A stretch of DNA of 64,000 bases from Stieleria bergensis (lineage in GTDB: Bacteria; Planctomycetota; Planctomycetia; Pirellulales; Pirellulaceae). Under the pieces are notes generated by a model that was given only the letters and a program-made list of their open reading frames with translations, made no database searches and was not told the DNA's origin. This document shows, piece by piece, positions 1,556 to 7,126 of the stretch. A program made the translations under genes and the position numbers. Where the stretch lies: positions 6,399,697 through 6,463,696 of the forward strand of contig CP036272.1 of NCBI GenBank assembly GCA_007745635.1, written 5' to 3'. Position 1 is the stretch's first letter, and each line of letters starts with the position of its first letter.

Positions 1556-3117
1556 TCAAGAGGCAGATTCGAATTGCCCAGTCGTGAAAGCCGTCTCAAT
1601 ATCAGCCGGGCAACAGAGCCGGTCAGTGGGATCGTCTGCCAACATCGCCAAAACGACATTCCGAATCAACGGTCGGGTTTGCTGCCAACGCTCTGAGTTT
1701 TCAATGATTTTCAAAGACATCCAATTCTGTGGATGCGTTTTCCGGAGCCGGCTCATCGACACTCCCGAAAACAACTCATAGGCAATGCATCCCAAGCTGA
1801 AGTAATCCGATCGATAATCACCGGGCAATCCTACTAAACCTTTCGGGTGCCACGTATCCCTGCGTCCCACCCACAGTTGATTGAAGACCGGCAGTTGGGT
1901 CGTATTCAGCGGTGAGGCCGAAATCCAGCAGATGACACGACTTGCCATCCAGCCCTAGGATCACGTTGCCAGGCTTGATATCCCGATGAACCATGCCCAG
2001 AGAGTGAACCGCGTTTAGACCGTTCAGCAACCGCCTCAAAATGGCGATCGCGGTATCCATTGAAACCGAGCTCCTCCTCAGGCGTCGACTCAACGTAATG
2101 CCTTCAAGGTATTCCATGACAAAGTAGGGCTGACCGCCAACTTTTCCCACATCATAGATTCGCACCACGTTGGGATGGTTTAACTTTGCCAATCGACGTG
2201 CCTCGGCCTGAAACCGATCGCGAAGCTCCTGCCCGACCTTGGGGCTCTTCAACGTCTTGATGGCCACAGGGCGTTTCATCGAGACCTCGATAAACCACGC
2301 CTTCACCACCAACGCCAAGAACATCTTGAATCGAGTATCGGCCCAGCTGCTTTGTTAGCGCTGCGGTGATGCTGGCTTGCCGGCGATCAACGTCCGCGGA
2401 GGAATGAAAACGCAACTTGGTGGATTGATCGGAGATGCAGGAAGAATCAAATTCAATGGTTTCCTCCATGCCCCCATCTTTTAGAGCATCGAATCCATCC
2501 TCATCTCCGCCCGAATGCGAGACATCCGACACCATTGAATGCAGGTCAGACTCCCGCGTTGGATTGACAACTTCTGCCGTCACGCGACAGACTGAAAACG
2601 TGCAAAATGCGTCCCCTTTCTTGCAACACGTTTCCTCCATCACCTCGATCTCTTCGTGGAAATACTCCCCCATGCCAACCAGCACGCCACGCGCGAGTTG
2701 ACACAAACCTCACCTAGACGCGTAGACCACTTGCATCTTATCAGGCGTCAGTTCGAATGCATGGATTGACGCGGGGTGCGCTCCTTCATTGTTGATCTGC
2801 ACGGTGCGATGGATCATGGATTCTAAATTGGATAACAGCTCAAACGTTTTCCAGTCCGGGTGCAGCATTCCACGGGAAAATCCAACCAACTCAGCAGCAG
2901 CAAATCGGCCAATCTCATAAAGTGCCGTGGCGACCTCAATCCCCAAATGTTCACACGCCGATTCGAGGATTGCCATGACGGCTTCATCTGGATAGATCTC
3001 AATCGGCGAGAGCACCAAATCAGGACACCCAGCACCGTCCAGAAGCTGCTGCCATGTTTGGCCGCCAAAGCGTGTGTCAACAAACTTCTTAACGATAACA
3101 CAGATCGAACCGTGCAT
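1556..3117 (-). pseudogene. H-NOX (heme NO/O2-binding) domain fused to Ser/Thr kinase, broken by a stop and two frame changes
   Basis: From the ATG at 3117 the protein begins MHGSICVIVKKFVDTRFG, a typical H-NOX start, with Ile102-His103 at the proximal heme-ligand position. It reads VVYASR and then meets an in-frame TGA at 2710-2712. The same frame continues GLCQLARGVLVGMGEYF, the H-NOX C-terminal helix, so only one codon is bad. It falls on the final Arg of the heme-propionate motif YxSxR, consistent with CGA to TGA. A linker leads into a Hanks kinase: glycine loop VLGVGGEGVVYRG, then a frame change near 2275, RPVAIKTL, catalytic loop HRDIKPGNVI, DFG, APERF, another frame change near 1825-1835, and SDYFSLGCIAYEL. 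The ORF to 3240 adds 41 residues upstream that do not look like H-NOX. The intact form would be a gas-sensing kinase. Pseudogene or sequence error cannot be separated here. Confidence 0.85.
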
Positions 3118-3276: not shown

Positions 3277-4701
3277 CTATGGAGCGGGCAAGACAAAGCG
3301 AAATTCTTTGCCACCCCGAACCGTGTAAGTCACCTCGTCACCGGGCTTGTGATTTAGCCGAAACCAGGTGATCAGCTTGCGAGCATCAAGGTCCCTGCCC
3401 ATGCCGTTGATGGCGATGATTTCCATACTGGGACGCAGACCCGTACTGTAGACGGGGCGTTCGGCAGGCTTCGGTCCCATCCAAGGTTTAATGGACAAGC
3501 CCTGATCTTTGCCAGCTTTGGGGCCGCGCAGAGGAAAGAATCCCATCGTCGGTCCATAAACGCCATCATAAACGGTTTTACGCCAGTAGGATTCCGTCTT
3601 CCGCCAACCCGGTTCAAGGACCACGGTTGCAAATTGAATGTCCTGTCCGCGTCGCCAAGCGATCTCCAATTGATCGGCACCATGAGCTGCACGATGCAAG
3701 ACGCCACGAAAATCAGCTTGTCCGAACAATTTTGTGCCCTCCGCCATCAGCAGTTCATCGCCAGGCATTAATCCCGCTCGGTCCCCAGGGCTGCCAGCCG
3801 CAACCTGTTTGACCACCAACCCGTGATCACGTTCTAGCAACAGACCAACATTCTCCGGCAATGGCCATTTGTCCGTGATTGTCCCGACGTCAAAGGTATC
3901 AGACTGCATGGCTTCGATGTTCATCATGTCACCGACTTGATGGCAGTGGATACAACTGCCGAACTCTTTGTGGGGCTTGCCCAGTCCCGGTCGTTTAGCC
4001 TTTAGCAGTGTGTAGCCCTTTGAGTCCTTGGGCCCCGTGGCAACCTGCGCGGCATGTCCAACGGGCAAGTCGATCTTCCATGACGGACGATCGGGATTGT
4101 AATGGTGTTTTAGAATTCGCACCAAGTTATTGATGAAGGCTTCTTCGCTGATGCGAGTGTTCTCGCTGACATGATCCTTGCCACCGAAGACACCGTATAA
4201 GTCGCCTTGCGGCGACAGGAAATAGGCCCACCAAGACAAGTCCAAATCCTGATGCGTTTTGTAAGGAAAGAACCGCTGATCCAGCAGTGAAGCATCGGTC
4301 AATCGAACCGTTACAAACCGGCGCAGCAGTGGATTGAGCGTCAAACTGCCCTCCAAGATTTCCTGATCGAACTCAGCACACTGTTCACAGGGCAAACAGC
4401 GCCATGTCACCAATAATGGCTTACCGGTCTGCTTGGCTTCCTTCATCGCTGCACTCAAGTCATCCCGCCAAACGACTTCCCCCAGCGGGTCAGGATCGGC
4501 AGGCACCTTCCACTGACGCGACGTTAGAATTTCCCGCCACTTCGCTTTGCCAGAATCCGTCCGTTCACCAGCATCTGGTTCGGCAGCCGGCACAGATGTT
4601 TGCCAGGCCACCAGCAACGCGGTGGCAAGAATGGTCAAACCGATGAATGACGCACCAAAACCGTGCAGGCGACGCCTGCCAAAGCATTTGACCAAAGTCA
4701 T
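3277..4701 (-). CDS. Exported thioredoxin-like / CxxCH / PDZ protein
   Basis: Start chosen at the ATG at 4701, which has AGG about ten bases upstream and gives a signal peptide (MTLVKCFGRRRLHGFGASFI then a hydrophobic stretch ending at SVPAA). The longer frame to 4899 adds 66 residues without family character. Domains in the 474-residue form: a thioredoxin-like domain with RCLPCEQC near residue 103; a CIHCH c-type heme motif near 250, after which the text reads QVGDMMN; a PDZ domain about 275-350 (GSPGDRAGLMPGDEL); and a second PDZ-like half at the C-terminus (PSMEIIAINGMG). This suggests a periplasmic redox or protein-quality role. Heme binding and substrate are inferred from motifs only. 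The gene is divergent from the GntR gene. Confidence 0.8.
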   Translation of the reverse strand: MTLVKCFGRRRLHGFGASFIGLTILATALLVAWQTSVPAAEPDAGERTDSGKAKWREILTSRQWKVPADPDPLGEVVWRDDLSAAMKEAKQTGKPLLVTWRCLPCEQCAEFDQEILEGSLTLNPLLRRFVTVRLTDASLLDQRFFPYKTHQDLDLSWWAYFLSPQGDLYGVFGGKDHVSENTRISEEAFINNLVRILKHHYNPDRPSWKIDLPVGHAAQVATGPKDSKGYTLLKAKRPGLGKPHKEFGSCIHCHQVGDMMNIEAMQSDTFDVGTITDKWPLPENVGLLLERDHGLVVKQVAAGSPGDRAGLMPGDELLMAEGTKLFGQADFRGVLHRAAHGADQLEIAWRRGQDIQFATVVLEPGWRKTESYWRKTVYDGVYGPTMGFFPLRGPKAGKDQGLSIKPWMGPKPAERPVYSTGLRPSMEIIAINGMGRDLDARKLITWFRLNHKPGDEVTYTVRGGKEFRFVLPAP

Positions 4702-4900
4702 CTGAATGCCTGCAAAGAGGGGGACTGCTGGAGAGCATTTTCGCTGGATTAGAAAGGATTTCCCCATTGTACTGACTTGGCCAACAACCGCCACAGTGAA
4801 GCCGTAGGCGACTGTACCAAGGGCCCGAATTGCGTTAAGATTAGCCATTCGTCCCCCCAGAAAACCCGCCTCCTTCCACAGCCTTAGAGAGCGTTCCACC

Positions 4901-5623
4901 GTGCCAGCAACTCGGAAAACCGATATCCCTCATCAGGAAACCAACCTTTCCGAACGCTCCTATCACTTTCTCCGCGAGCAACTTTCCAGCGGAAAACTGC
5001 AGCCTGGCGATCAGTTGGTCAATCGAACGTTGGCCAAGGAAATCGGTGTCAGCATTGTGCCGATTCGGGAGGCAATCAATCGCCTTTCCAGCGAAGGCCT
5101 CGTGGAGCGTGTCCCCGGTGCCGGTGCCTTTGTCCGCAAACTTGATGCGCAAGACTTAGACAATCTTTATGTGCTGCGTGATGCGTTGGAAAGCTGTGCG
5201 GCTGCCGAGGCTGCCCGCTACATCAATGAACTGGAACTCGAAGAGCTTCACGATATCTTGAAGGAAGCTCAGGCGATCGCGGAAAAACTCACCAACCAAA
5301 GCCGAGGTCACGCGACCAAAGCACAGATGGAAGCTTGGCTCAGCACTGAAAAACGATTTCACTCTCTCTTGATCGAAGCCTCCCGCAACTCGCTGCTGGC
5401 ACGTGTCGCTGGCGAACATCATGCCATCAGCCAAATCTTTGACTCTCAACGCACCGTTCCCGAACTGCTGACCGCCAAGGTCGCCACGCTGACTTGCTCT
5501 GGCAAGAAGTCACTGCTAGCCGCTTTGAAACGACGCGATCATGCCAAAGCTCGCGACTTGATGAGCGCTCAAATCCAACGCGGCCGCAAACGCGTGCTGC
5601 AGCTGTACCGCAAATCGCAGTAG
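4901..5623 (+). CDS. GntR-family transcriptional regulator (FCD/FadR-like)
   Basis: 240 residues starting at GTG. Residues about 15-80 form the GntR winged helix (LSERSYHFLREQLSSGKLQPGDQL, then EIGVSIVPIREAINRLSSEGLVERVPGAGAFV). Residues about 90-225 match the all-helical FCD effector domain (LYVLRDALESCAAAEAARYI, FHSLLIEASRNSLLARV, HAKARDLMSAQI). FCD regulators usually bind small carboxylic or sugar acids and repress neighbouring catabolic genes. Its target here is unknown; candidates are the divergent redox protein, the adjacent PmoA-like gene, and the GTTATAAC palindromes further on, which fit the general GntR pattern GT-N-AC. The length is normal for the family. Confidence 0.9.
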   Translation: MPATRKTDIPHQETNLSERSYHFLREQLSSGKLQPGDQLVNRTLAKEIGVSIVPIREAINRLSSEGLVERVPGAGAFVRKLDAQDLDNLYVLRDALESCAAAEAARYINELELEELHDILKEAQAIAEKLTNQSRGHATKAQMEAWLSTEKRFHSLLIEASRNSLLARVAGEHHAISQIFDSQRTVPELLTAKVATLTCSGKKSLLAALKRRDHAKARDLMSAQIQRGRKRVLQLYRKSQ

Positions 5624-5761: not shown

Positions 5762-6745
5762 CTAATGCTGACCGGTGTACAGATTCCAGTGCTGGTCAAT
5801 CGCTTTCGGATTCGCCGCTTCACTGGTCACCAAATAGCGATAACGTGAAACGTACTTCTGGCCTGGCTGGATCGTAAACTCTCCGTCAACCATCGGTGCG
5901 AAACAGAAATAAGGTTTACTGGGATGCAGTCGTACGGTTTGCGGAGCTCGAAAATTCTCCGCGCTGCATAAGACGGCAAGAGAAACTGGCTGACCATCGA
6001 TTCGACCACTCATGGCCACCCAGTTTGGCTGAGTGTGATTGCCTTGCAACCGATCCTTGCCTTCACTGGTTAGAAATCGGAAGCCGTTGGGGTTCCGATC
6101 GGTGGCTTGCTTGTCCAGCAACCACTGAATGTTGCCGCGAATAGCCATGCCGCCGTAACGGTACTGCTTAAGCACGAGCGGGGTCTCGCCAGCACACTGC
6201 TGCACACTTTGGATGTCAAACACGAAGCGATCGTCGGGCGTCTGATACACCGTCACGGTCCAGTGCTCGATGATCGCGTCCACTTTGTTGTCTCCGCGAC
6301 CGACGGTAAACGCATGTTTCGCGGAGAAGGAGACATGTTTTTCGGCTCGCGTGACTTCGCTGATTCCGCGAAACTCAATGCCCGCTTGTTGCTTGGCTTG
6401 ATTCCAGAAGTCCACTTCTTGGCCTGCAAAGCTGGCCTTGGTCCAAGCGAAGAACAAAGCGTGCTGATGCGCGTGATCCTGCGGGTAATCGCCGGTGATT
6501 TCCTGACCCGTTGGACTGTAAACGGGATGGATGTATCCACTGCGGGCATAGTGCGGTGCCAAACCTTCAGGAACTTTTCTCGCAGTCTTCACATATTCCA
6601 AAATGGGCTTACCGCGCTGCGAAATTCGAATGCTGTCATCGGTTTCGACAAGCTGCAGATCGGCGGCGAGGAGGCATTGGCCCATCAAAATCGGCAACAG
6701 AAAAAGCGTCAGCAACCGGGTGGTGATCATCGGAATTCTCGTCAT
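5762..6745 (-). CDS. PmoA/DUF6807 family exported protein
   Basis: 327 residues with an N-terminal signal peptide (MTRIPMITTRLLTLFLLPIL, cleavage probably after LLAA). The segment DYPQDHAHQHALFFAWTKAS followed by an aromatic/acidic stretch (GQEVDFWNQ) and the later KQYRYGGMAIRG and NPNGFRFLTSEG are typical of the DUF6807 family, often annotated 'methane oxygenase PmoA' in planctomycetes. That name is misleading: these are exported proteins found near carbohydrate catabolism genes and have no membrane monooxygenase features. The biochemical role is not established. An internal ATG five codons in is an equally possible start. Confidence 0.8.
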   Translation of the reverse strand: MTRIPMITTRLLTLFLLPILMGQCLLAADLQLVETDDSIRISQRGKPILEYVKTARKVPEGLAPHYARSGYIHPVYSPTGQEITGDYPQDHAHQHALFFAWTKASFAGQEVDFWNQAKQQAGIEFRGISEVTRAEKHVSFSAKHAFTVGRGDNKVDAIIEHWTVTVYQTPDDRFVFDIQSVQQCAGETPLVLKQYRYGGMAIRGNIQWLLDKQATDRNPNGFRFLTSEGKDRLQGNHTQPNWVAMSGRIDGQPVSLAVLCSAENFRAPQTVRLHPSKPYFCFAPMVDGEFTIQPGQKYVSRYRYLVTSEAANPKAIDQHWNLYTGQH

Positions 6746-7126
6746 TGATTAGGTTCACCTGCGTCGAAAGCGAGCCGCAAGTGTTTCTCGTTGTCCGCTG
6801 GATGTGGATGCGAGCCGCGTCCAAGCCACGACTGCCGGCGGTGTCGCACGACCGACGCCAGGGATACGCCCGCGACGCCAGGGATTCGAATTGGGATTCG
6901 AATTGGGATTCGAATTGGGATTCGAATTGGGATTCGAATTGGGATTCGAATTGGGATTCGAATTGGGATTCGAATTGGGATTCGAATTGGGATTCGAACG
7001 AGGACTAGACCAGGATAGCTAACTCCTGCCTTCACGTCGCCTGATTATCCTTATCATGCAGCTTCTCTCAGGAAAGATTCCACTTCCCTTTGACCACAGT
7101 TTCAGTTGCGACAAGCATCAACGTCG
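6746..7126. other. Intergenic region between divergent genes
   Basis: 381 bases between the PmoA-like gene (leftward) and the DUF5690 gene (rightward). It holds a 12-bp tandem array (listed separately), preceded by two copies of a shorter unit (cgacgccaggga near 6855 and 6873). Overlapping reading frames here are open only because of the repeat. Promoters for both flanking genes should lie here, but I see no convincing -35/-10 pair. Confidence 0.6.
6881..6998. repeat. 12-bp tandem repeat, about 10 copies, containing palindrome ATTCGAAT
   Basis: Unit GGGATTCGAATT repeated head to tail without mismatch from 6881 to 6998 (nine full copies plus a ten-base partial). Each unit contains the 8-bp palindrome ATTCGAAT, so the array offers evenly spaced two-fold sites, about one per helical turn. 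The period is a multiple of three, so all frames across it stay open, which creates artificial NWDS or IRIG repeats in translation. Confidence 0.95.

Follow-up and report, generated by a model that had tools for sequence, protein, structure and literature searches.

An apparently young H-NOX-Ser/Thr kinase pseudogene in Stieleria bergensis points to a conserved family of putative gas or redox switches in Pirellulaceae

Results

Organization of the locus

The window, by which we mean the whole stretch of 64,000 nucleotides from Stieleria bergensis that was analysed, contains on its minus strand, from 3117 to 1556, a gene that in three-frame translation encodes an H-NOX domain followed by a Hanks-type Ser/Thr kinase. 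A preliminary description of this DNA had given these coordinates and had proposed an H-NOX domain with the proximal His103, fused to such a kinase, and all of this holds: the Pfam scan scores the N-terminal part as HNOB with 69.2 bits, well over the cut-off of 25.5, Pkinase is matched further on, and an H-NOX search of the whole genome recovers the gene at 5.1e-26 with '1 TGA' inside. The first frame begins with MHGSICVIVKKF, has a normal start and is open until it ends in YASR and a TGA, and past the TGA the same frame is still open over the Cys-bearing end of the H-NOX domain, the linker and the kinase G-loop. VAIK, HRDIKPGN, DFG and APE follow in a second frame, and DYRSDYFSLG with the C-lobe in a third. 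The features are listed below.

2713..3117, minus strand: H-NOX (HNOB) domain, residues 1-135, up to the stop (PF07700, E = 5.2e-19; motif positions)
2811-2809, minus strand: codon of the proximal His103 (motif position)
2724-2722, minus strand: codon of Tyr132 (motif position)
2710..2712, minus strand: in-frame TGA at the Arg codon of the YxSxR heme-propionate motif (translation; comparison with fused relatives)
2284..2709, minus strand: post-stop stretch of the first frame, with the C-terminal part of H-NOX, a polar linker and the kinase G-loop (translation, alignment)
2703, 2628 and 2604, minus strand, within 2284..2709: Cys139, Cys164 and Cys172
2319-2284, minus strand: kinase G-loop, LGVGGEGVVYRG
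2256..2286, minus strand: first frame change, a net shortening by 8 nt of the interval between G-loop Gly and catalytic Lys (against 31 relatives)
1839..2279, minus strand: middle part of the kinase in the second frame, catalytic residues kept (Pkinase, E = 6.6e-32 for 1821-2324, minus strand)
2267-2256, 1988-1965 and 1931-1917, minus strand: VAIK, HRDIKPGN and LLDFG, then APE
1817..1853, minus strand: second frame change, net 1 nt more from APE to DYRSD (against 31 relatives)
1556..1840, minus strand: kinase C-lobe in the third frame, from GLVGLPGDYRSDYFSLG to ESAS and a stop (weak Pkinase match for 1559-1948, minus strand, 9.9e-6, under the family cut-off)

Elsewhere in the window, a perfect tandem repeat of the 12-base unit GGGATTCGAATT (9.8 copies) occupies 6881-6998, close to the side on which a minus-strand ORF (5762-6745) starts.

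Lesions and pseudogene status

The gene is broken at three places, and none of these lesions has a counterpart in the relatives. In all 35 fused relatives the codon at the place of the TGA encodes the Arg of YxSxR, and the motif is left incomplete in the window copy. From the Gly of the G-loop to the Lys of VAIK there are 58 nt, compared with 66 nt in 31/31 intact relatives, and from the Glu of APE to the Asp of DYRSD there are 25 nt, where 29 of the 31 relatives have 24 and the other two have 27. Both frame changes are of the same sign. The stop at the YxSxR Arg and the two same-sign changes had been read correctly in the preliminary description, which also placed the frame changes correctly.

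Outside the lesions the gene is well preserved. Of 29 H-NOX columns without variation among 32 relatives of the family it keeps 27, and one of the two that differ is the stop; of 37 kinase columns invariant in 31 relatives it keeps 36. When each intact relative is left out in turn, it deviates at 0-2 H-NOX and 0-3 kinase invariant columns. The kinase G-loop, VAIK Lys, alpha-C Glu, HRD, Asn, DFG and APE are all present in the window pieces, spread over three frames. The genome is a single contig of 7.1 Mb with 50 Pkinase matches, two of which are the window gene, and as a control for in-frame stops we found none in the other 48, several of which are partial matches. The other two H-NOX genes of the genome (L001 and L003) are also open. 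Because no other kinase match has a stop and nearly all other conserved residues are kept, the window gene looks, by its sequence, like a young pseudogene that was recently inactivated. On this reading the function is lost in this genome: translation would reach the stop with the heme site still incomplete, and three different frames hold the kinase motifs.

Distribution and phylogeny of the fusion

A scan of a collection of species genomes gave one close relative, an intact H-NOX-kinase frame of 538 aa from an uncultured Rubripirellula (L008, CALJHC010000028.1), with an HNOB score of 98.2 bits against the same cut-off of 25.5. Rubripirellula is a member of the Pirellulaceae, and the contig is that of G203 among the genomes of the window's family. 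The preliminary description had suggested a search for proteins with both domains and a comparison with related genomes. In a search of the whole family an H-NOX match is present in 80 of the 241 genomes, and from these results we took 40 places, chosen for long or visibly broken frames, which were tested with the two halves of L008. In 31 of the 241 genomes (L037-L067), representing 6 of the 68 genera, H-NOX and kinase lie in one open frame, with the frames of L042 and L049 reaching the end of the contig on one side. Four of the 40 places (L036, L070, L073 and L075) turned out not to be fusions. Further copies are cut by a contig end (L069), contain a run of N (L071) or have one frame change in H-NOX (L068), and two copies in other genera are heavily decayed, with many stops and frame changes: L072, at about 3980-5263 in G187, and L074, at about 4019-4539 in G065, where the kinase match is absent. 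Altogether at least 37 of the 241 family genomes have the fusion gene, 31 of them intact and at least six cut, shifted or decayed, the window included; this is a lower bound, as places with short frames, including two pieces in G147, lie outside the sample. The gene seems to have been lost repeatedly, in S. bergensis as well as in G187 and G065.

At the DNA level none of the 13 other genomes in the window's genus has the gene; four of them give hits of 31-53 bases to the region of the kinase catalytic loop. Synteny within the genus was of no use, the neighbouring gene at 3280-4896 having only relatives of 29-32% identity in the other genus genomes. Across the fusion loci, several of which are short contigs, no family of neighbouring genes was found in more than two genera, which is as expected of a switch that does not need a partner gene.

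Outside the family, 42 of 392 sampled genomes of the phylum have an H-NOX match. One genome of another class (G284) has three copies of the same fusion, found among the 11 longest frames outside the window's own genome. The 12 genomes of that class, three of them with H-NOX, gave no further fused frame in a check that left aside a 252-aa frame of G417. The 687-aa frame of G388 is, as we read it, a stand-alone H-NOX whose upstream extension is spurious and not a fusion, and in L080 the kinase match is downstream of the H-NOX frame, not inside it. Two tandem H-NOX matches on the same strand, with 83 bases between them, were seen at G532:C3:47985-49027 (L082).

A maximum likelihood tree was made from 50 H-NOX rows, namely 35 fused and 13 stand-alone proteins, the O2-binding Tt H-NOX (Caldanaerobacter/Thermoanaerobacter, PDB 1u4h) and the window, with L081 and L003 left out. 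The window falls together with all 35 fused rows in a single clade, which has a support of 100/100 and sits on a long branch; the program warned of long branches meeting. The window adjoins the L064 group (89/58, weak), and L064 is also the relative with which it has its highest identity, 62%. From these sequences the fusion, which is conserved as a family in Pirellulaceae, appears to have arisen once.

Several other H-NOX genes were seen during the searches. In the window's own genome, L001 (1498-3220) has a stand-alone H-NOX of 185 aa and next to it, overlapping its end, an ORF that by our own reading resembles a PAS-histidine kinase, and L003 (52-1743, minus strand) is an intact frame of 563 aa with a degenerate, partially matching H-NOX and a kinase with a strong Pfam match. 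The H-NOX part of L003 is without the proximal His, YxSxR and any of the three Cys, its N-terminal part was found in none of the 13 other genus genomes, and the ORF beside it resembles a receiver-HDOD protein, again by our own reading. A His-less H-NOX-like domain is also joined to a kinase in L081 (G347:C1, about 2954504-2954968), a single frame of 668 aa from another lineage of the phylum with C-terminal repeats of TPR-like appearance. The existence of such His-less H-NOX-kinases suggests that some of these domains are heme-independent in function or are relics. L006 (G002:C1:335953-336429) is a stand-alone H-NOX of the window's genus in which His replaces the Arg of YxSxR.

Sensor and kinase residues of the intact proteins

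His103, Tyr132, Ser134, Arg136, Cys139, Cys164 and Cys172 are present in all 35 fused rows. The three Cys, a possible zinc/redox site that the preliminary description did not mention, are also kept in the window and occur in 2 of 13 stand-alone rows, these being hand-picked (12 from the family and one from the phylum). At the fourth zinc-ligand position, described as His/Gln, the fused rows have Glu (15), Gln (8), His (6) or Lys (6), so that only 14 of the 35 agree with that description. The position of the distal Tyr140 of Tt H-NOX is occupied by Leu in 33 fused rows and by Gly and Val in one each, never by Tyr; positions 9 and 74 never have Trp or Asn, and 23 of the 35 have Ala at position 115, where Tt has Pro. 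Since the distal Tyr is absent from all of them, O2 sensing by the fused family is unlikely, as far as the sequences can tell, and by the distal-pocket residue rule as set out in section 5 of PMC8738867 the residues point to the NO type and not to the O2 type.

The catalytic residues (G-loop, VAIK Lys, alpha-C Glu, HRD, Asn, DFG and APE) are complete in 34/34 kinases checked, and the linker between H-NOX and kinase is 69-109 residues long. In 31 proteins the mean hydropathy of a 19-residue stretch reaches 1.64 at most, and they therefore have no clear membrane helix.

Discussion

The best explanation is that the window gene belongs to a conserved family of soluble H-NOX-linker-Ser/Thr kinases and was inactivated recently. 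The intact members of this family would be gated by NO at the heme, by oxidation of a Cys-zinc site, or by both, and we give this reading a probability of roughly 70%. Its homology and architecture, the place in a single clade, the conserved residues and the three lesions can be seen directly in the alignments, the tree and the translations, and from there on the model is a prediction about heme and zinc binding and about gating. In the intact members His103 and YxSxR would hold a ferrous heme, and NO bound to it would move the two halves of the H-NOX domain as it does in other H-NOX proteins. Oxidation of the zinc-type site of Cys139, Cys164 and Cys172 could cause the same change, which in turn would switch the tethered kinase in cis, without a separate histidine kinase or cyclase. 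There is precedent for both NO and Cys-zinc control of H-NOX in sections 5 and 10 of PMC8738867 and in parts of PMC12329717, and in the cases from Vibrio cholerae and Caulobacter that are treated there (section 10 of the former, and the latter) oxidation of the Cys site controls H-NOX in vitro. The default guess for the sign of the NO effect would be inhibition, because in pairs of H-NOX and histidine kinase, as these are presented in section 5 of PMC8738867 and in PMC12329717, it is the NO form that inhibits the kinase. The proposal of the preliminary description, that undamaged homologues would be candidate NO- or O2-responsive kinases, can consequently be narrowed: the intact homologues exist, in 31 genomes, but the missing distal Tyr makes the O2 part of it unlikely.

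The most serious alternative concerns the signal. The intact family could be mainly a thiol or redox sensor whose kinase is under the control of the Cys-zinc site, with heme-bound NO of minor importance, and we regard this as a rather unlikely but substantial possibility. The three Cys are found throughout the fused rows and in few of the sampled stand-alone ones, and according to PMC12329717 it is Cys oxidation, and not NO, that gives a functional response in the H-NOX of Caulobacter, an obligate aerobe for which denitrification is not known. None of the 241 family genomes has a copper nitrite reductase above the cut-off, which is what makes the redox reading a serious rival; weaker matches occur in 56 of the 241, and the one in G025 (2.4e-50) is partial and interrupted by a stop. 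This result, however, leaves aside cd1 nitrite reductase and exogenous NO as sources, and the presence of His103 and YxSxR in every fused row argues that the heme matters. The wider claim that the intact relatives make up a distinct class of one-protein transducers, formed by a single fusion and lost repeatedly, in which a heme domain like that of soluble guanylate cyclase gates a eukaryote-type Ser/Thr kinase in cis and reads NO as well as thiol oxidation, is in our opinion evenly balanced between being right and wrong.

The remaining alternatives concern the window copy. Were its lesions errors of sequencing or assembly, the gene would be intact in the organism, and the almost complete retention of conserved residues outside the lesions is what one would see in an intact gene. 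We find this improbable, as a net loss of 8 nt is in our judgement atypical of homopolymer error and argues for a real mutation over a read error, and as this single-contig genome has no in-frame stop in its 48 other kinase matches and two further H-NOX genes that are open. It is very improbable that the cell still produces the truncated H-NOX (residues 1-135) or fragments of the kinase and that these do something useful by themselves. The first piece is indeed an open frame with a normal start, and the decay is young, but this piece stops ahead of both the Arg of YxSxR and the Cys site, and the kinase has its G-loop and its catalytic loop in different frames, so that neither the heme domain nor the kinase is whole. 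Programmed recoding, with read-through of the stop and two frame changes giving a whole protein, would fit the correct order of reading after each lesion but is hardly credible, since 31 intact relatives have one open frame and the 8-nt loss removes residues that are found in all of them. By itself the window copy is an ordinary young pseudogene.

Several known systems can be compared with the fusion. The best match of the sensor among solved structures is the stand-alone H-NOX of Shewanella oneidensis (PDB 4u99, 1.6e-14), with which the family has His103, YxSxR and the three-Cys site in common. The partner of stand-alone H-NOX proteins is, in the account of section 5 of PMC8738867, a separate histidine kinase or c-di-GMP enzyme, whereas the fused proteins carry a Ser/Thr kinase as the partner on one polypeptide with the sensor. 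Tt H-NOX is likewise the N-terminal domain of a fusion protein, but its output is a membrane chemoreceptor and it has the distal Tyr140 that the fused rows here are without. Animal soluble guanylate cyclase beta1 also carries an N-terminal H-NOX on a soluble signalling enzyme, although that enzyme is a cyclase and not a kinase, and the sequence match to it is weak (5mnw, E = 0.043, residues 2-72). It also has HNOBA and coiled-coil parts, none of which were found in the Pfam scan of L008. On the kinase side the best solved match is PknB (1.7e-37), and the fusion kinases have the full set of catalytic residues of the PknB-type Hanks kinases. PknB is a membrane kinase with a PASTA sensor, while the fusion is a soluble protein with an H-NOX sensor.

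As H-NOX outputs, the cited parts of the literature describe histidine kinases, c-di-GMP enzymes, chemoreceptors and guanylate cyclase. In the literature that we searched, which covers few subscription papers, no title or abstract that came up reports an H-NOX domain fused to a Ser/Thr kinase, and no paper has 'H-NOX' together with 'Planctomycetes'. The fusion architecture may already be listed in domain databases, and the 2003 paper that defined HNOB may contain an earlier mention of it. The view of the preliminary description that the fusion is uncommon can be refined: it belongs to a conserved Pirellulaceae family and is not an isolated rarity. The intact fused proteins look like a little-noticed gas or redox switch made of a single protein.

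Conclusions

If a conserved H-NOX-Ser/Thr kinase family is confirmed, it would be a direct switch from gas or redox state to Ser/Thr phosphorylation in one soluble bacterial protein, and would provide a route from NO to Ser/Thr phosphorylation without a cyclic nucleotide, histidine kinase or c-di-GMP step. According to section 5 of PMC8738867 there is no high-resolution structure of an H-NOX with its signalling partner, and having sensor and partner in one chain would make the family a tractable system for this open problem. The value of the broken copy in S. bergensis is that it points to such a family, with heme and three-Cys features and apparently a single origin, which deserves to be tested.
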